Of a stretch of DNA of 64,000 nucleotides, positions 55,402 to 64,000 are shown piece after piece. The DNA is taken from positions 1-64,000 of the forward strand of contig JAOZFN010000009.1 of assembly GCA_027492205.1 (NCBI GenBank), given 5' to 3'. The notes beneath the pieces are model-generated. The model saw only the letters and a list, made by a program, of their open reading frames with translations, was not told the DNA's origin and did not search any database. A program made the position numbers and the translations under genes. The stretch comes from Thermoproteota archaeon (GTDB lineage: Archaea > Korarchaeota > Korarchaeia > Korarchaeales > Korarchaeaceae). The number at the start of each line of letters is the position of its first letter. The stretch's first letter is position 1.

Positions 55402-56853
55402 TCACGGAGCCCCAATCCTCTTCAAAGCCTCCCCGTACTTGATTAAGCCCACCATCGCCCTCGCGGCCCTCTCCGGGGTCGGGTAGGCCGGTATTCCAAG
55501 CTCGTCGAACCTCTCCCTGTAGGCGATTCCGTACTCTCCCTGCCCGATGTCGGCCACCAGGACGGGCTTGTCCCGCCTCTCCCTCACCTCGGCCGCGATC
55601 CTGTCTGGGAGGTCGGAGGTGAGGCCCGGCACGTGGTGAAGCGGGAGCACTATCACCCCGTCGACCTCGGGGGCGTCCAGGAGGATCCGGAGCGACTCCA
55701 CGAACGCGTCGTCCGTGGCGCTCCCCGTGACGTCCACCGGGTTGGCTACGGCCGAGATGGGGGGGATCACGCCCCTGTCCATCAGCTCCCTTAGCCTGGA
55801 CTGCGTCTCCTCGGAGAGCTGGACGACCACGGCCCCCCTGCTCTCGAGCTCGTCGGCCGTCATGACCCCAGCCCCGCCTCCGTCCGTTAGGACGGCGATC
55901 CTGGGCCCCTTGGCCGGAGGCTGCATGGAGAGGGCCTTGGTGACGTCGAAGAGTTCCTCCACTTCGTAGACCCTCACGACGCCAGCCTGCCTGAGGGCGG
56001 CGGAGTAAACCTCGTCAGCCCCCGCCAGCGCGGCTGTGTGCGAGCTCGCCGCCCTGGCGCCCGCCCCGGTCCTGCCAGCCTTGAGCACCACGACCGGCTT
56101 CTTCGGGACGGTTCTCCTGGCGGCCTCGATGAACCTCCTCCCCTCCTCGATCGACTCGGCGTATATCACGATCACCCTGGTTTTGGGGTCGTCGGCCAGG
56201 TACTCCATGAGCTCCACCTCGTCTATGTCCGCCTTGTTGCCGTAGCTTACGAACTTCGCCAGCCCCAGACCCTCGCCAGCCATGTAGTCCACGCAGGCCA
56301 CGCCAAACGCGCCGGACTGGGTGAGGAGGGATATGTTACCAGGCCCGGGCCTCGGGAGGGACAGGAGGTCCCTGCCACCCAGTTCTTTCTTGTAGGGAAG
56401 GAACATGGTGTCCACTCCCGTCTCTGGGCACACTATTCCCACGCAGTTCGGGCCCACCACGCGTATTCCGTGTTTCTTCGCCACCTCAACGAGTTTCTCC
56501 TGAAGCTCGACGCCTTCCCCTCCCACCTCGGCGAACCCACCTGAGATGACGATCACGTGCTTGATCCCCTTCCTGCCGCACTCGTCCACCACGGCCGGAA
56601 CTATCCTCGCCGGGACAACGATCACACCGAGGTCCACCGGCTCCGGCAGGTCGGTGACGCTCGGATAGGTGGGCACGCCCAAGATTGGTTCCTTCGCCTT
56701 GGGGTTCACTGCGTAGAGCCCGCCCTTGTAGAGGCCGCTCCTCTGGTTTTCGACCATAACCCTGAGGAGCTCGTGCCCCACCGAGCCCGGCTCCCGGGAG
56801 GCGCCTATCACGGCAACCGATTCCGGGTAGAAGAAGGGGTCCAGGTGCCCCAC
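55402..56853 (-). CDS. ADP-forming acyl/acetyl-CoA synthetase, alpha-type subunit
   Basis: The protein has a CoA-binding Rossmann domain (FFYPESVAVIGASREPGSVG), a succinyl-CoA-synthetase-like part with LLTQSGAFGVACVDYMAGEG, and the phosphorylated His region SSHTAALAGAD. These make it the alpha half of the archaeal ADP-forming acyl-CoA synthetase, which makes ATP from acyl-CoA. The beta half is not in the window. GTG 56853 is preferred because the TATA-like TTTTTAACG on the minus strand (about 56888) would be too close to ATG 56880. Confidence 0.88.
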   Translation of the reverse strand: MGHLDPFFYPESVAVIGASREPGSVGHELLRVMVENQRSGLYKGGLYAVNPKAKEPILGVPTYPSVTDLPEPVDLGVIVVPARIVPAVVDECGRKGIKHVIVISGGFAEVGGEGVELQEKLVEVAKKHGIRVVGPNCVGIVCPETGVDTMFLPYKKELGGRDLLSLPRPGPGNISLLTQSGAFGVACVDYMAGEGLGLAKFVSYGNKADIDEVELMEYLADDPKTRVIVIYAESIEEGRRFIEAARRTVPKKPVVVLKAGRTGAGARAASSHTAALAGADEVYSAALRQAGVVRVYEVEELFDVTKALSMQPPAKGPRIAVLTDGGGAGVMTADELESRGAVVVQLSEETQSRLRELMDRGVIPPISAVANPVDVTGSATDDAFVESLRILLDAPEVDGVIVLPLHHVPGLTSDLPDRIAAEVRERRDKPVLVADIGQGEYGIAYRERFDELGIPAYPTPERAARAMVGLIKYGEALKRIGAP

Positions 56854-56894
56854 GGTTATCCCGCGCGGCCGGCCGCGCATTCCGTTAAAAATCG

Positions 56895-58091
56895 TTAAGA
56901 CGAGGGGGCCGACTCGGCCTCCTCCCTGGCCTCGGCCGCGGTCAGCAGGTGCCTCTCAACCGCCTGCACGGAGGACTCGAACTCCTCCCTCGGCGTATCC
57001 TCCATCTTGGTGAGCTCCTCCTCGTGCACCTCGTAGTAGAGCCTGGCCTCCTTCAGGAGGGAGGGAAGCCTCACCAGCTCCGGCTCCACCAGCAGGATGG
57101 CTATCTCGAAGTACTTAGACCCAGGGGCGACCGCCAGCCCCTCTCTAACGTCCACCCCAGCTATCTTCTCGCTCAGGAGCCTCTTGGCCTCGAACACCGC
57201 GTCTACGTTGAGGTACTCCTCCGGACCCCTGACCACGAGCGCGGCCTTCAGGGCAGTGCCCGTCCTGACCTCGGCCAGGCAGCCCTCCCTGAGGGCGGCC
57301 TCCGTCAGGAACTCCAGGCTCCCGCCGACGGACTCCACCCTAGCCTTCATGTAGCAGGGTACCGTGAGGGAGGCCTCGAAGAACCTGAGGATGGACTTCA
57401 GGTCCTGCGAGTCGAAGGTGGTCTTGTACCCGCCCCTCAAGGGCTCCACGTCGGCCGCCGACATGGCGACCATGCAGCGGCCCACGAGGGAGTTTATCCT
57501 GTCTAGGACCTGCTCGTCGCTCAGCCCCGGCTCGTCCCTGAGGACGATCTCCCTGGCAGTCTCGTTGTCCAAGAGTATCAGCGAGTCGACCCTGCCGAGC
57601 ATGTTGGCCGTGGCTATGACCGAGTTGTAGGCGAACCTCATGCTCTCCTTGGGGAACTTGAAGGGGAGCACGCCCACGGAGACTATGGGCTGGGTGGGCG
57701 GGCCTCCCCCGCCGAGCATCTCCCTGACGTAGTCGGCTACCACCGGCATGGACCCGCTGCCGGTCCCCCCTCCCAAGGCCGCAGAGAGCACCACCGCCGT
57801 CGAGTTCGCTATGCCCCTCTCGGCGACGACCCTCGTGAAGAGTTCCTTGCTCTCGGGTTCCAGCATGGCCTTCATGGAGTCCTTCCACCTGGCGCCGACC
57901 CCAGCGCCGCCGAATTTGCCGAAGAGGTAGAACCTGTCCTTGAGCACCTGGAGCTTGGCCTGGTCAGACACAGAGGTGTTGAAGACTACGGCGTCCACCA
58001 TGGCCGACGGGGCCTCTCCCGTGAACGTGTCGTAGGTCCTGTCGATGATCGCCCCGCCTGCCCCGCCCAGCCCTATCCCAAACCAGCGCAT
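56895..58091 (-). CDS. FtsZ/tubulin-superfamily GTPase (divergent, CetZ-like)
   Basis: The 398-residue protein has the N-terminal nucleotide loop GIGLGGAGGAIID, the tubulin signature ALGGGTGSGSMPVV (GGGTGSG at 107-113) and a T7-like loop TFDSQD (225-230) in the position of NxDxxD, which keeps both Asp but has Thr for Asn. Polymerisation and GTP hydrolysis are therefore plausible. It is not a standard FtsZ, because loops and the C-terminal half (about 250-398) diverge; it is closest in spirit to CetZ or other non-canonical archaeal types. It lies 60 bp after the coiled-coil gene in the SMC operon. Confidence 0.88.
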   Translation of the reverse strand: MRWFGIGLGGAGGAIIDRTYDTFTGEAPSAMVDAVVFNTSVSDQAKLQVLKDRFYLFGKFGGAGVGARWKDSMKAMLEPESKELFTRVVAERGIANSTAVVLSAALGGGTGSGSMPVVADYVREMLGGGGPPTQPIVSVGVLPFKFPKESMRFAYNSVIATANMLGRVDSLILLDNETAREIVLRDEPGLSDEQVLDRINSLVGRCMVAMSAADVEPLRGGYKTTFDSQDLKSILRFFEASLTVPCYMKARVESVGGSLEFLTEAALREGCLAEVRTGTALKAALVVRGPEEYLNVDAVFEAKRLLSEKIAGVDVREGLAVAPGSKYFEIAILLVEPELVRLPSLLKEARLYYEVHEEELTKMEDTPREEFESSVQAVERHLLTAAEAREEAESAPSS

Positions 58092-58151
58092 TAGGCCACC
58101 TCTTCCTGACGGCCCAAGATGGGAATAATATTAACGAGCGCCGACTCACGC

Positions 58152-60107
58152 TCAGGGTATCCTCCTCGCCAGTCTGCCGAGTAGCTCAGGCAGATCGCTG
58201 GCGGCACGATCGGTCCCGCCCGCTGAGAGTAGTCTCCTGAGTTCCGTGACCAAGCCGGACCTAACGGGCGCGCCCAGCCTCTCCTCCAGAAGGTCAAACA
58301 GTTCGGCGATCGCGTCGACCGCCGGAGCCGTGGGCGGCGCCTCAGGAGCTGGGGCTGGGGCCGGGAGCGGTGCGACGGGCTTCACGGCGGCTTCCTCTAT
58401 AGCCGGGGCTGTAGGTGTTTGCGTGGGCGCCTCCTCGAGTTTCGGTTCTGGCGTCTCGGCTGCGGCCGGCGCTACCGGCCCGCGCTCCGGGGCGCGCTCG
58501 GCCGGCTTAACAGCCTCCAGGCGCCGTACCTCCATCCGGGGAGCGGGCTTGGGCCTCGGGACTTCGACCCTGAGGGGCTTTATGAGATCGCCCTCGAGCT
58601 CCACGAGCCCCTCGTCCCTCAGCCTCCCGATCACCCACGGCCTCCACCTCTCCGGTATCTTCACCAGGTCCCCCACCCTAAGAGTCCCCGCCTTGGAGAG
58701 GGTAGTGAGGGCGTACTCCTTCCAGTAGGGGTAGAACCTCTCGGCGTCCGCCGCGGCCTCGAGGTACTCCGACAGCCTCCTCCGCACCTCCTTGAGCGGC
58801 GCCAGCGCCTGCCGGGCCTTCTCCTCAGGTGACATGGTAGGAACCTGAAGGGCCGCCCTTATGGTGGCCAGGACCGCGTCACCGTCCGAGACGAGCTTCA
58901 GCTGCTGAGAGATGGGTCCGGCCCTCTGCTCGGCTCTCCTGATGTATATCAGAAGTTCTAGGTTCTCTCTGATCCTCCTCACCTCCCGGTCGATCCTGTC
59001 CACGTCGTCTGGGTCCTTGACCTCGGCCCCCGCCCTGATCGAGGACAGCCTCACCGCCAGCGACCCTATCAGGGCGGTGAACGCGTTGGTGTTGAACTCC
59101 CTGTCGAGCATCTCGGCGGCCTTCTCGGCCTCGGAGATCAGGGCGAAGGCGCTCTCAAGCTCCAAGCTCAGTCTCTCTAGCTTCTCGAGCCCGTTCAGGA
59201 GGGGTTTGAGGGCCCTCTGCTCCAGAGACCTGAGGTCCACGAGGGCGTTCTCCATGCACTCCAGGTCCTCAGGGGGGCACCGGTTCTCGATCCGGGCGAT
59301 CCTGGCCTCGATCCACCTCACCGAGTCCTCGACGTAAACTGGGTCTATCCCGCTCTCCCTTATCCTGCTCGCCTTGAGGCGGATCGACTCTATCTGCCCC
59401 CTCACCCTAGAGAGCTCCGCCGCTAGGGCTGCCCTAGCCTCTTTAGACCTGGCGAGAACCTCTCTGATCTCTCTGATTTCTGAGTCGATCCTCTGGGTCT
59501 CTATAAGGGCGGCCTCGAGATCTGAAGTCGACTTCAGGGGAGAGCTCAGGAGTTCTTCCACCTTGGCGAGGTGGCCCCTCAGCTTGGAGGCTATCTCTGA
59601 GAACCCTCCCCTCTCGGCGGCGCCCAGCAGCTCCCTCGCATCCGCCTCGAGCGTCTCCAGCTTCCTCAGTAGGACTTTCCTGGCCTCCTCCCCTATCGCC
59701 CAGAGAACCGCCTCCAGAGAATCCATGAGGGACTCTATCCTGGGTGAGTACCGCCTGGCCACTCCCCCCTTCCCGAACGCCTTTCCCAGCGCCCTGGAGA
59801 GCGGACCCGGCTTCGAGGCGACGTCGGGATCGGAGGCCATCTCTCGAACGAGCTCGTCCACCTTCTCCACGACGCTCGTGAGTCTCGGCTTCAGCTCCTC
59901 CACCTGGAGGCTTCCGAGATCCTCCAGCCTCTGGAGTATGCCGTCCCCCCTCGCCGTCATCAGGAGGAGGAGCCCCAGTGCCTCCAGGATACCCGCCATC
60001 TCCAGGTTCTCGATCATGTACTCGACGACTTCGCTGGAGATCCCTCTCCTCTGCAGCTCTTTGAAGACGTATTCCCTGCTCGACTCGCTGCCCGACAGGG
60101 CAGGCAC
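58152..60107 (-). CDS. Large coiled-coil protein with Pro/Ala-rich linker (SMC/ScpAB operon)
   Basis: The 651-residue protein has an N-terminal helical domain (about 1-80), a long coiled-coil-rich middle (about 80-410) with one Cys-containing stretch ENRCPPEDLECMEN, a possible winged-helix-like part (TLSKAGTLRVGDLVKIPERW, about 470-520), then a Pro/Ala/Glu-rich linker (about 530-600) and a C-terminal helical tail (AIAELFDLLEERLGAPV). The order suggests a tether between partners. No family is recognised. GTG 60107 starts one base after the ScpB stop. Confidence 0.75.
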   Translation of the reverse strand: MPALSGSESSREYVFKELQRRGISSEVVEYMIENLEMAGILEALGLLLLMTARGDGILQRLEDLGSLQVEELKPRLTSVVEKVDELVREMASDPDVASKPGPLSRALGKAFGKGGVARRYSPRIESLMDSLEAVLWAIGEEARKVLLRKLETLEADARELLGAAERGGFSEIASKLRGHLAKVEELLSSPLKSTSDLEAALIETQRIDSEIREIREVLARSKEARAALAAELSRVRGQIESIRLKASRIRESGIDPVYVEDSVRWIEARIARIENRCPPEDLECMENALVDLRSLEQRALKPLLNGLEKLERLSLELESAFALISEAEKAAEMLDREFNTNAFTALIGSLAVRLSSIRAGAEVKDPDDVDRIDREVRRIRENLELLIYIRRAEQRAGPISQQLKLVSDGDAVLATIRAALQVPTMSPEEKARQALAPLKEVRRRLSEYLEAAADAERFYPYWKEYALTTLSKAGTLRVGDLVKIPERWRPWVIGRLRDEGLVELEGDLIKPLRVEVPRPKPAPRMEVRRLEAVKPAERAPERGPVAPAAAETPEPKLEEAPTQTPTAPAIEEAAVKPVAPLPAPAPAPEAPPTAPAVDAIAELFDLLEERLGAPVRSGLVTELRRLLSAGGTDRAASDLPELLGRLARRIP

Positions 60108-60108
60108 C

Positions 60109-60591
60109 TCAGAGGGTTTTCCGCCGCCTATTTTTATCGATGCTGGGTGGCACTTCGAAGAAGTTTCTGGCCAGCCTCGTGGCCCAAGCGTACATCTTGC
60201 CGTTCTTCTTCCTCACGCCGACCAGGCCCTCGCGCCTGAGCCTCTTGACGTGCCTGTAGGCCGACGCCCCCCTCACCCTCGCGAGGTCAACCAAGTACAT
60301 GCCGCCCCTCTCCAAGAGGACGGCGAGGGTCCTGAGCTCTCCCCTGGTCAGCTCCGGTCTCGGGGCCAGCCTCCCCACGACGCCGTGAAACTCCCGCTTG
60401 AGGGTCATGTACCACCCGGTGGGCCTCCGCTCGATGGCTATGGACCTGCCCCTGTAGACCTCCTCGAGTCGAGATATCCAGCCGGGCACCTCCTCTGGGG
60501 GCACACCCGCGACCTTGGCCAGTTCCTCCTCCGAGAGCGGCCTGCCGGCGATGAAGAGCGCGGCCTCAATCACCAACTCCGGTCTGGTCAA
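60109..60591 (-). CDS. scpB: Chromosome segregation/condensation protein ScpB
   Basis: The 160-residue protein has the tandem winged-helix layout of ScpB: LVIEAALFIAGRPLSEEELA at the N-terminus (helix 1 of wing A), RRPTGWYMTLKREFHGVV and a second winged helix with TRGELRTLAVLLERG and YRHVKRLRREGLVGV. ScpB binds ScpA in the SMC complex. It overlaps scpA by 26 bp. Confidence 0.9.
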   Translation of the reverse strand: MTRPELVIEAALFIAGRPLSEEELAKVAGVPPEEVPGWISRLEEVYRGRSIAIERRPTGWYMTLKREFHGVVGRLAPRPELTRGELRTLAVLLERGGMYLVDLARVRGASAYRHVKRLRREGLVGVRKKNGKMYAWATRLARNFFEVPPSIDKNRRRKTL

Positions 60592-61153
60592 CCCGCCTCA
60601 ACCGTATTAGGATCTCACCAAAAAGGGTCTCCTGCTGAAGCTCGACCTCCCCCTCCAGCTCCATGTGGAGGAGGGAGACCATAGCCTCGGCCGCCTCGGA
60701 CCTGTCCCTGGCCAGCTCGTGGAAGGGAACCTCGCGGCGTCCCGATCTGCCGATCAACTCCAGGAGCCTGGACCTCACCCTGTCCAAGTGCTCCGCCAGG
60801 CTCATTGCCGCCGAGATTATCCTGGAGAGGCCGTCCTCAGCCCTCCCGAGCGTTCTCGCCCACTCGATCGCCGCGGCGAACTCTGAGGGTCTGGGCCTCC
60901 GGGCCGGCACCCTCCCCAGCAGGGGCTCGGGAATGGTGGCCGCGGGAGCGGGCCTAATCCGCCTGGCCCCGGGTTTGGTCCCCTGGGGAGCCTCCTCGTC
61001 CTCGCCCAGCTTCGCGAGTGAGTCGGCGAACCTCCTAAGCTCGACCGCCAGGGAGTAGAGGGTCCTGGCAGCCCAGGGCATGTCCCGGGTTCGGCGGAAC
61101 TCTGCGAGGACGCGCTCAACCCTCAGCAGTATATTCGACGCGATCGAACTCAT
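60566..61153 (-). CDS. scpA: Chromosome segregation/condensation protein ScpA
   Basis: The 195-residue protein has the kleisin layout: an N-terminal helical part, a Pro/Arg-rich linker (ARRIRPAPAATIPEP) and a C-terminal winged helix (VPFHELARDRSEAAEAMVSL...LFGEILIRL). ScpA bridges the SMC heads. ATG 61153 overlaps the SMC gene by 38 bp. It is shorter than the usual 240-260 residues, with the N-terminal helix-bundle region reduced. Confidence 0.88.
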   Translation of the reverse strand: MSSIASNILLRVERVLAEFRRTRDMPWAARTLYSLAVELRRFADSLAKLGEDEEAPQGTKPGARRIRPAPAATIPEPLLGRVPARRPRPSEFAAAIEWARTLGRAEDGLSRIISAAMSLAEHLDRVRSRLLELIGRSGRREVPFHELARDRSEAAEAMVSLLHMELEGEVELQQETLFGEILIRLRRVDQTGVGD

Positions 61154-63476
61154 CGAGCCTCACGCCCACCACCTTAGACTCGCCGTTCACCATCCTCACG
61201 CCAAGTATGGCGTCCGCCTCCTCGAGCGTGTCCTTCTTGAGGGAGATTATGATCACCTGCGACCCCCTTGCCACCATCCTCCTCAGGAGGGCCGCGTACC
61301 TCTTGCAGTTCCTCCCGTCCAGCATCATGTCTGCCTCGTCGAAGAAGTAGAGCGGGCTGGGTCGGACGCTCTGGAGGGCGTATATGAAGGCCAAGGCCGT
61401 GAGAGACTTCTCCCCGCCCGAGAGCGCCTCCATCGGAACCTCTCCCTTCTCCGGGAGGTTGACCCTGACCTCGAGCTCCAGTCTCGGCCACTCGCCCGAC
61501 ATCCAGACCTCACCCTCCCCGCCGAACATCTCTCCTATGGCCTCGTTGAATGCCTTCGACACCTTCTCGACGGTTTCCCTCAGGACCGCATCCCTCTCCT
61601 TTGCTATCTCGTCCAGGGCCCTCTCTATCGAGGCCCTCGCCTCTTCCAGCTGGGCCAGCGTCTCATCCATCTCCCGGGCCTTCGCCTCCTCCCTCCTCAG
61701 CTCCTCCAACGCGTCTGGACCGACCAGCGGAATGGTCCGGAGCCTGGCCGCCACGGCGGCGTACTCGGACTCCGGATCGTCGGACTCGGCCGCCTCCACG
61801 TCCTTCAGGCTCGCGAGCCTTGTCCTGAGCTCCTCTAGCCTCTGAGTCAGCTTACCTCTCTCCTCGGCGACGGCGCGCATCCTTCGCTCGTACGCCAGCC
61901 TCGAACTCATGGCCCTCTCAAGGTCGGCTCTGAGTTCGTCTATCCTCCTCCTCACCTCCCTCAGGGCCTCCTCAACCTCATGGGCGCGCTCCGGCGGGGG
62001 GAGTTCCCGCGCCCTCGCCTCCAGCTCCTCCAGCCTCTCCATGACCCTCTCCCGCTCCTCCAGCAGCTCTTCCAGCCTCCTCCTGAGGCGCCTCTCCTGC
62101 GCTGGGGAGGGGGGAGAGGACAGGATGCTGCCGTCCCTCTCGAGGATCTCGCCGTGCAGGCTGACGAATCGGTACCTGCCAACGTCGGACCTGGGGATGG
62201 AGTCCAAGTCCTCCACGAGCACGGCGTTCCCGACAATCGCCCCCACGAGTCCCTCCACGCCGGGCTCCGCCAGGACGTATTCTCTGAGCAGCCCGAGGGA
62301 GTACTCGGGCGGGTTCACGGGTCTCGGAGGCCTCAGGACGTCAAGCGGGAGCACCCTTATCCTGCGGCTCAGTCTCGAGCCTCTGAGGGACCTCACCATC
62401 TCGAGTCCGGCCTCCAGGGTTCTGACCACCGCATCGCCAACCCTCGCCCCGGCGACCGCCCTGTAGGCCATCTCGTAGCCCTCCACGGGCCTCACCAGTT
62501 CCGCGACTATCCCTACGTAATCCGGGTGACTCGTCACCGACCTCGGGGGCGGGGAGGCCCCCATGGTCGCCAAGAGGGTTCTCACCCCCTCCAGCTCCGC
62601 TTCAAGGGACCTGAGCCTCTCCCTGAGGGTCGCTATTCGGGCCTTGACCGTGGCGGCCTCACGGGCCCTCTTGAGTTCTTCCGAGCCCTCCAGCTTCCTG
62701 AGTTCCGACTCAGCCCGCCTGACCTCCCTCTTAATCTCCTCGATCTCCTCCTCGGATATGGCGGGGGCCTCCGGGGGCTGCAGCTCTTCTAGGTCCCTCT
62801 CGGTTCTCTCCATCCTCCTCAGTAGGACGGCCTTCTCCAGGGAAGCCAGTCTGCGCTCCAGCTCTTCCCTCTCGCGGTACGCCTCCGCCCTCCTCCTCAG
62901 AAACTCCAGCCTCTCCAGCCTGTCCCTCTGGAGCGCCCTGAGCACCCTGATGCGCTCCTCCACTCGCTCTAACTCTCTCAGCGTCTCCTCTCTCTTCCTC
63001 TCGAACTCCTCGACTCCGCTGATCTCCAGAATCAGCGCTGCCCTCTCCCTCGGGGTCGACTCGATTACTGCAGTGACCTCGCCCTGGCTGACGAAGTTGT
63101 GTCCGTCGGCCCTTAGGCCGAGCTCTGCCAGGGCGTCTCTGACCTCGTTGGCGGACGCCAACCTGCCGTTGAGTCTGTAGGACCCTCCAGATCTAGTTAT
63201 CCTCCTCTCGAGCCTCAGCGCCCCACCGGGGTGTCTGAGGACCAGCTCGACGGAGCAGGTGGCGGCCCCCTTCCTGATCAGGCCCCTGAGCCCCTGGGAC
63301 CTGAGCCAGCTCCCCCTGGCGCCCATGGCGAACATGACCGCCTCCATCACGTTGGACTTGCCCGAGCCGTTGGGCCCTGTGATGGCGGTCAAGTCGGAGG
63401 GGAACTCTATGGCGGCGCTGCGGAAGGACTTGAAGTTCTTCAGCCTGATCTTCGTGAGCCTGACGCCTGTGGTCAG
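61116..63476 (-). CDS. smc: Short-armed SMC protein with likely CTG start
   Basis: From CTG 63476 the product has 786 residues and starts TTGVRLTKIRLKNFKSFRSA, the normal SMC N-terminus. Walker A is GPNGSGKS (34-41). A first coiled coil runs about 156-306, a hinge domain about 312-456 (from SHPDYVGIVAELV), and a return coil about 457-630. Signature LSGGEKS ends near 691 and Walker B FDEAD is at about 712-716. Typical SMCs have about 1,150 residues with coils of about 300, so the arms are roughly half length. A TTG codon 28 codons downstream (63392) would delete the conserved N-terminus, hence the CTG choice; AGGAGGG precedes it. Confidence 0.87.
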   Translation of the reverse strand: MTTGVRLTKIRLKNFKSFRSAAIEFPSDLTAITGPNGSGKSNVMEAVMFAMGARGSWLRSQGLRGLIRKGAATCSVELVLRHPGGALRLERRITRSGGSYRLNGRLASANEVRDALAELGLRADGHNFVSQGEVTAVIESTPRERAALILEISGVEEFERKREETLRELERVEERIRVLRALQRDRLERLEFLRRRAEAYREREELERRLASLEKAVLLRRMERTERDLEELQPPEAPAISEEEIEEIKREVRRAESELRKLEGSEELKRAREAATVKARIATLRERLRSLEAELEGVRTLLATMGASPPPRSVTSHPDYVGIVAELVRPVEGYEMAYRAVAGARVGDAVVRTLEAGLEMVRSLRGSRLSRRIRVLPLDVLRPPRPVNPPEYSLGLLREYVLAEPGVEGLVGAIVGNAVLVEDLDSIPRSDVGRYRFVSLHGEILERDGSILSSPPSPAQERRLRRRLEELLEERERVMERLEELEARARELPPPERAHEVEEALREVRRRIDELRADLERAMSSRLAYERRMRAVAEERGKLTQRLEELRTRLASLKDVEAAESDDPESEYAAVAARLRTIPLVGPDALEELRREEAKAREMDETLAQLEEARASIERALDEIAKERDAVLRETVEKVSKAFNEAIGEMFGGEGEVWMSGEWPRLELEVRVNLPEKGEVPMEALSGGEKSLTALAFIYALQSVRPSPLYFFDEADMMLDGRNCKRYAALLRRMVARGSQVIIISLKKDTLEEADAILGVRMVNGESKVVGVRLDEFDRVEYTAEG

Positions 63477-64000
63477 GAGATCACCCTCCTGCCCTCCTCA
63501 GTGATCCTGAGGATGCTTCCCCTTGGGGTCTTCTCCATCTCGATGAAGCCCCCCTCGCTCAGCCTCCTAGCCCTGCGCCAGATCGTAGTCTTGGGCATCT
63601 CGAGGGCAGCCCTAAGCTCGGACAGGTAGGCAGATCCGCCCATCTGGTCCAGCTTCCTGAGGAGGGCTATGTCGTCGTACGAGAGCGGGGGCCTCTCTCC
63701 GGAGGTCCTCCTCCCCCGCGCCCGGAGGAGGAGTGCTATAGCGGCCGCCACGACGGCCCCGGCGGTCGCGATCCCGACCCAGAGGTATCTCAGCTCCCAC
63801 TCCGGCTGTGGTCCGTGAGATCTCGCCAGGAGGACGTAGGAGACCCAACAGGGGGTCTCCATGAAGACTATTGTCCTGTTGTCCACCGAGGTGACCGCGG
63901 AGGGCAGCTCAGACATCCCGACTAGGAGCGAGCCCTTCGGGAGTCGGATCTCGCAGGTACCCAGGTTGACGCTCAAGTTCACCGTCCAGACGTCTCCCTC
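63473..64000 (-). CDS. Membrane-anchored winged-helix protein (5' end beyond window)
   Basis: The frame is open to the window edge, so the start lies outside. The visible 175 residues begin with an extracytoplasmic beta-rich part (DVWTVNLSVNLGTCEIRLPK...VDNRTIVFMETPCWVS), then a membrane helix (LWVGIATAGAVVAAAIALLL) and a cytoplasmic winged helix (LLRKLDQMGGSAYLSELRAA, KTTIWRRARRLSEGGFIEME). The stop overlaps the SMC start as CTGA, so the two are made together. The architecture resembles the decayed regulator at 23493-24328. Confidence 0.8.
   Translation of the reverse strand, partial: EGDVWTVNLSVNLGTCEIRLPKGSLLVGMSELPSAVTSVDNRTIVFMETPCWVSYVLLARSHGPQPEWELRYLWVGIATAGAVVAAAIALLLRARGRRTSGERPPLSYDDIALLRKLDQMGGSAYLSELRAALEMPKTTIWRRARRLSEGGFIEMEKTPRGSILRITEEGRRVIS

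Follow-up and report, generated by a model that had tools for sequence, protein, structure and literature searches.

A locus in the genome of a vent korarchaeon raises the question of whether a chromosome-folding complex and a cytoskeletal GTPase that are encoded side by side also work together. The window analyzed here is the first 64,000 bases of a contig (positions 1 to 64,000) of this 1.94-Mb genome (G000), whose nearest relative among the genomes compared, MAG Aegir_M25_B147 (G001), encodes a GTPase that is 97% identical. A sequence-only reading of the window had described six genes on one strand as an operon that joins SMC and its two accessory proteins to a membrane-anchored winged-helix protein, an unrecognized 651-residue coiled-coil protein (here CC), and an FtsZ/tubulin-like GTPase, with a presumed joint role in segregation or division. 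The genes of the region are as follows.

Upstream in the same-strand run, minus strand, saccharopine-dehydrogenase-like gene, named from reading of the sequence
Upstream of the wHTH gene with a gap of 9 bp, minus strand, alaX, named from reading of the sequence
63473..64000, minus strand, 3' part of the gene for a wHTH membrane protein (283 aa; 5' end at contig position 64324, past the window), with a signal/TM segment at residues 6 to 30, a TM segment at 178 to 203, and the wHTH at ~214 to 280
61116..63476, minus strand, smc, short-armed SMC of ~786 aa (Pfam SMC_N, 5e-45; hinge, 9e-15; both above cutoff)
60566..61153, minus strand, scpA, kleisin of 195 aa, recognized at the profile level only
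60109..60591, minus strand, scpB, KITE subunit of 160 aa (PF04079, 6.2e-22)
58152..60107, minus strand, cc, helical-bundle protein of 651 aa, candidate CetZ adaptor or regulator
56895..58091, minus strand, cetZ, divergent CetZ-family GTPase of 398 aa (PF00091, 3.6e-17)
55402..56880, minus strand, acyl-CoA synthetase gene (ACS; CoA-binding/succinyl-CoA-ligase-like), 14 bp from cetZ

The six open reading frames, their common strand, and their order were reproduced, as were all junctions: overlaps of 4 bp between the wHTH gene and smc, 38 bp between smc and scpA (61116 versus 61153), and 26 bp between scpA and scpB (60566 versus 60591), followed by gaps of 1 bp between scpB and cc and 60 bp between cc and cetZ. 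The identifications of SMC, of ScpA and ScpB, of the GTPase as a tubulin-superfamily member, and of a helical partner also hold, and the partner is conserved. The six genes are contiguous, but as a unit they are less well delimited than had been proposed: the wHTH gene exceeds the window, and the same-strand run goes on to alaX and the saccharopine-dehydrogenase-like gene on one side and to ACS on the other, so the six-gene boundary is arbitrary. We favor, with a probability of about two-thirds, the reading that an smc-scpAB operon here abuts a conserved module made up of CetZ and an adaptor, CC, whose task is to regulate or tether the CetZ filaments.

The juxtaposition of smc, scpA, and scpB has already been published for three Korarchaeota species, and the archaeal ScpA-ScpB pairs tested in that work did not interact (PMC7055376). 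The window SMC keeps a two-part ATPase head and a hinge, with Walker A (GPNGSGKS), signature (LSGGEKS), and Walker B (FFDEAD) motifs. As a single sequence ScpA fell under Pfam cutoffs; a profile built from 11 korarchaeal orthologs retrieved the C-terminal domains of ScpA structures in the PDB (4i99_C, 1.8e-10; 5xns_C, 7.7e-10). No ATG, GTG, or TTG lies upstream of Walker A in the smc genes of genus g1, that of the host (window 63330 to 63480; L041 4640 to 4740), and a CTG is needed as the start for this reason. The CTG at 63476, identical in G001, gives the 4-bp overlap, its CTGA spanning the preceding stop, and is the probable start of smc in this genus. The module thus shares with the Smc-ScpAB of bacteria and archaea its three subunits, their order, and the SMC head, hinge, and signature motifs, but differs in its short arms, in a kleisin seen by profile only, and in the probable CTG start in g1.

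Korarchaeal SMCs are short, at ~760 to 790 aa, with arms of 150 to 180 aa as estimated from domain positions (window 61116 to 63476; L042, L095 to L103). These estimated lengths lie near a minor arm-length mode of 163 aa and below the 253 to 267 aa to which the arms of Bacillus subtilis Smc can be cut and still function (PMC5344682).

The GTPase had been described as FtsZ/tubulin-like. It does belong to the tubulin superfamily, as a divergent CetZ and not as an FtsZ. In a profile search of the PDB, CetZ1, CetZ2, and CetZ were the top matches, with Haloferax CetZ1 first (3e-22). The AF2 model (pLDDT 91) had CetZ chains as its best four PDB fold matches (TM to target, 0.79 to 0.90), and the FtsZ chains among the top 50 reached TM 0.72 to 0.85 with weaker E values. 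The window copy scores 17.2 bits against the CetZ_C family (PF21011; cutoff, 21.6), which is exceeded by three orthologs (G008, 31.0 bits; G010, 24.8; G005, 22.4). In a tree the korarchaeal copies form their own long-branch clade, apart from FtsZ1 and FtsZ2, and join the CetZ side with support of 87/88. FtsZ identity was rejected on the same grounds, the window GTPase having no FtsZ_C match, falling outside the FtsZ clade, and matching CetZ first by profile and fold; TIGR00065 gave 40.6 bits against a cutoff of 295. Two true FtsZs with FtsZ_C are encoded elsewhere in the genome, together with a SepF-like protein that scores just below its cutoff. The window GTPase therefore has the tubulin superfamily in common with the FtsZ1/FtsZ2 and SepF system but groups apart from it in a genome that has both FtsZs besides.

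Compared with CetZ1 and CetZ2 of Haloferax volcanii and CetZ of Methanothrix (PDB 4b46, 4b45, and 3zid), the window copy has the T4 motif (GGGTGSG) and a T7 motif (FDSQD) with its aspartate aligned, but it is only 22 to 23% identical to these structures. The CetZs of g2 have lost the acidic T7 residues that those of genera g1, g4, and g5 retain, so GTP hydrolysis is perhaps not universal across the korarchaeal family. A CetZ ortholog is present in 8 of the 29 genomes of the phylum set, all in g1, g4, g5, and g2, and the carriers include Candidatus Methanodesulfokora washburnensis. The set was read as Korarchaeota through the Methanodesulfokora match, and we infer that its genus g3 is Korarchaeum. 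Published CetZ sets are mainly euryarchaeal in the searched text of two surveys, which held no mention of Korarchaeota (PMC9871819, PMC9856176).

CC was rightly called unrecognized: family searches gave no match to any known family, a fold search gave nothing better than an E value of 0.2, and PDB sequence matches were rejected as chance coiled-coil similarity. In its model (pLDDT 79.5), an N-terminal helical domain leads into a long helical bundle and a winged helix at ~474 to 511, followed by a disordered proline-rich linker (514 to 593) and further helices. The CC tree has long branches and weak support (84/85). In Korarchaeum, and also in G002, where the paralog is a second copy, CC paralogs adjoin a gene for a Ras/Arf-like small GTPase; the loci are as follows.

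L109 4794 to 7024, CC paralog with Ras/Arf-like GTPase
L110 5176 to 7397, CC paralog with Ras/Arf-like GTPase
L112 121 to 2377, CC paralog with Ras/Arf-like GTPase
L119 345 to 2920, CC paralog with Ras/Arf-like GTPase

An XPD-like helicase gene that adjoins a CC paralog in g5 was taken as incidental.

Gene order was compared across the relatives. It is identical in G001, and in G004, of genus g4, it reads alaX-SMC-ScpA-ScpB-CC-[464 aa]-CetZ-ACS with a gap of 3 bp between scpB and cc. The order is therefore not unique to the host genome, nor are the GTPase and CC genes apart from smc and scp in all relatives, because G004 keeps the series with a single 464-aa gene inserted. However, collinearity of G004 and G000 orthologs spans ~70 kb (~15 to 85 kb on the G000 contig), so that their shared SMC-CetZ adjacency is what background synteny predicts and is not independent evidence; on this control we rejected the G004 order as separate backing for an SMC-CetZ system. 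No SMC-CetZ adjacency beyond background synteny was found among the relatives, the two being kept together only where ~70 kb are collinear. A 148-aa gene called upstream of smc in G004 was rejected as spurious, the region encoding alaX. The link between cc and cetZ behaves differently. The two are adjacent in G000, G001, G005, and G002 and are separated by the one 464-aa gene in G004; the flanks are unrelated in G005, and G002 retains CC-CetZ-ACS. ACS also adjoins cetZ in G004, G002, and G006, and is probably a neighbor with its own promoter and not part of the system. Given that CC adjoins CetZ in g1, g4, G005, and G002 and that its paralogs adjoin Ras/Arf-like GTPases, its company is GTPases, not SMC. 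This suggests that the CC family serves GTPases and may be a fold of general use as a GTPase adaptor in Korarchaeota.

The spacing of the six genes had also suggested a single operon. Within 55001 to 66400 (11.4 kb, ~65% G+C), 10-mers with at least nine A/T occur only before alaX, CC, and CetZ, the background chance of such a 10-mer in a given 20-position stretch being 0.8%. Those before CC and CetZ are as follows.

60127..60141 (10-mers 60128 to 60138), minus strand, TATA-like element ATCGATAAAAATAGG, ~21 to 34 nt before cc and within the 3' end of scpB, candidate internal promoter
58122..58137 (10-mers 58123 to 58135), minus strand, TATA-like element TCGTTAATATTATTCC, ~31 to 46 nt before cetZ, candidate own promoter

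Both elements recur in G001, and G005 is also AT-rich before CetZ. The bases of TCGTTAATATTATTCC also score as a terminator-like tail. A sigma-70 promoter scan was discarded; its model is not applicable to archaea, and its result was at chance level. The tight spacing is consistent with one operon, but the candidate TATA boxes would split the run and suggest separate transcription units for cc and cetZ.

These data bear directly on the proposal that the locus encodes one joint system, in which CetZ filaments acting through CC would position or pull chromosomes organized by SMC-ScpAB, and the membrane HTH protein would anchor or regulate the assembly. The same-strand series from wHTH to CC, with its overlapping or nearly overlapping genes, the winged helix in CC, and the retention of the order in G004 at an SMC identity of 44% would all fit such a system, as would the precedent of SMC-like proteins that act with cytoskeletal proteins in cell shape (Sph3 in Haloferax; arcadin-4 with crenactin; PMC10869688). 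Yet the SMC tree places g1 and g4 together as sisters (98/98) and their entire region is collinear, and in the three genomes of g5, a third genus in which SMC and the GTPase both occur, SMC-ScpA-ScpB lies apart from both CetZ and CC. Fifteen of the 16 Korarchaeum genomes match the window SMC (partially in G003; the 16th, G020, is 70% complete), and none of the 16 has a window-type CetZ. The wHTH protein belongs to a korarchaeal paralogous family and adjoins smc in g1 only, so it is not part of a conserved set as had been supposed, and the candidate internal promoters also count against joint expression. A dedicated SMC-cytoskeleton system with CC as its linker to SMC is thus not borne out by the comparisons, and we consider it improbable that CC couples CetZ filaments to an Smc-ScpAB loop extruder for chromosome positioning or segregation, an arrangement that would possibly go back to the ancestor of the korarchaea with CetZ and have been dispersed in Methanodesulfokora. 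The apparent SMC-cytoskeleton operon is probably explained for the most part by inheritance of gene order.

A narrower proposal would make CC a lineage-specific partner of Smc, either an additional subunit of SMC-ScpAB or its regulator, with CetZ incidental. Winged helices and long helices of the kind found in kleisin- and MukF-type proteins, and the 1-bp and 3-bp scpB-cc spacings, speak for it; but CC beside scpB was not seen outside g1 and g4, the fold search returned no SMC partner, and CC tracks GTPases and is present in g2, where neither a canonical SMC nor a clear ScpB was found in either of the two MAGs (71 to 78% complete, with the G002 contig ending at the start of CC). We regard this as very improbable indeed. 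It is less far-fetched, although still unlikely, that CC and CetZ are mere neighbors, with CetZ acting alone and CC serving a housekeeping function through binding to DNA or membrane. The two are unlinked in Methanodesulfokora (G008 and G010), where a coiled protein with a weak EzrA match follows CetZ, and Korarchaeum has CC-type paralogs without CetZ. What argues against chance proximity is that the linkage is kept in g1, g4, g2, and G005 across rearranged flanks and that CC paralogs adjoin another kind of GTPase, as if the family served GTPases.

In the two-module reading that we favor, an ordinary korarchaeal smc-scpA-scpB operon would supply the chromosome-folding complex, a short-armed assembly of Smc, kleisin, and KITE subunits, and the cc-cetZ pair would form a second module. 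From its family, the window CetZ is predicted to bind GTP and to polymerize with it. CC would bind CetZ, as the conserved neighborhood and the paralogs beside other GTPases suggest; its helical body would regulate or tether the CetZ filament, while the winged helix and the flexible C-terminal tail could reach DNA, membrane, or another protein. Given that the genome encodes two FtsZs and a SepF-like protein besides, CetZ would act in cell shape or organization rather than in division. The modules would have been neighbors in the g1/g4 ancestor at the latest and held together by general collinearity. Several observations count against this reading: CC and CetZ are no longer linked in G008 and G010 and are interrupted in G004, the 1-bp and 3-bp spacings between scpB and CC would suit cotranscription, the CC tree has weak support and long branches, the g2 CetZs are without the acidic T7 residues, and the evidence from g2 is limited by the completeness and contig end given above.

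CC may do work comparable to that of TubY beside TubZ, or of other filament adaptors. In the type III plasmid partition system (PMC7762940), as here, a tubulin-like GTPase is encoded near a helical HTH-bearing partner. In contrast, the winged helix of CC lies near its C-terminal third, no sequence relation to the MerR-like TubY was found, cetZ is chromosomal, and none of the neighboring genes scanned was noticeably TubR-like, so that the likeness serves as a working analogy and not as a family assignment. Sph3/RdfA with CetZ1 in Haloferax and arcadin-4 with crenactin resemble the present locus in that cell shape brings together SMC-related proteins and proteins of the archaeal cytoskeleton; they differ in being SMC-like proteins rather than canonical Smc-ScpAB, and sph3 and rdfA are not described as adjacent to cetZ1 (PMC10869688). 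Our literature search found no paper in which canonical SMC-ScpAB and CetZ are connected. With a korarchaeal branch that has a conserved partner family of its own, CetZ reaches into another deep archaeal lineage, and CC offers a concrete candidate for an adaptor, open to tests on purified proteins. As this locus illustrates, background collinearity can account for a striking operon, and the SMC link therefore needs a direct test.

Other gene arrangements around tubulin-superfamily genes were observed. The Methanodesulfokora gene that follows cetZ encodes a helical/coiled protein of 471 to 482 aa (L043 7649 to 9064; L045 2501 to 3949) with TM-like segments near both ends in the L043 copy. A relationship of the 464-aa gene of G004 to this EzrA-like gene or to CC was considered and found no support. 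Several Korarchaeum genomes carry five tubulin-superfamily genes in tandem with small proteins between them, one a PRC-barrel protein (L109 10556 to 16105; L110 10572 to 16201; L111 7592 to 13158). Hydrothermarchaeum, Pyrohabitans, and related MAGs share a recurring block in which CetZ is followed by a second tubulin-family gene, a gene for a ~272-aa helical protein, and a third tubulin-family gene (L050 9554 to 13680; L131 10001 to 14144; L137 10001 to 15111; L140 10001 to 14199; L149 7642 to 11836).
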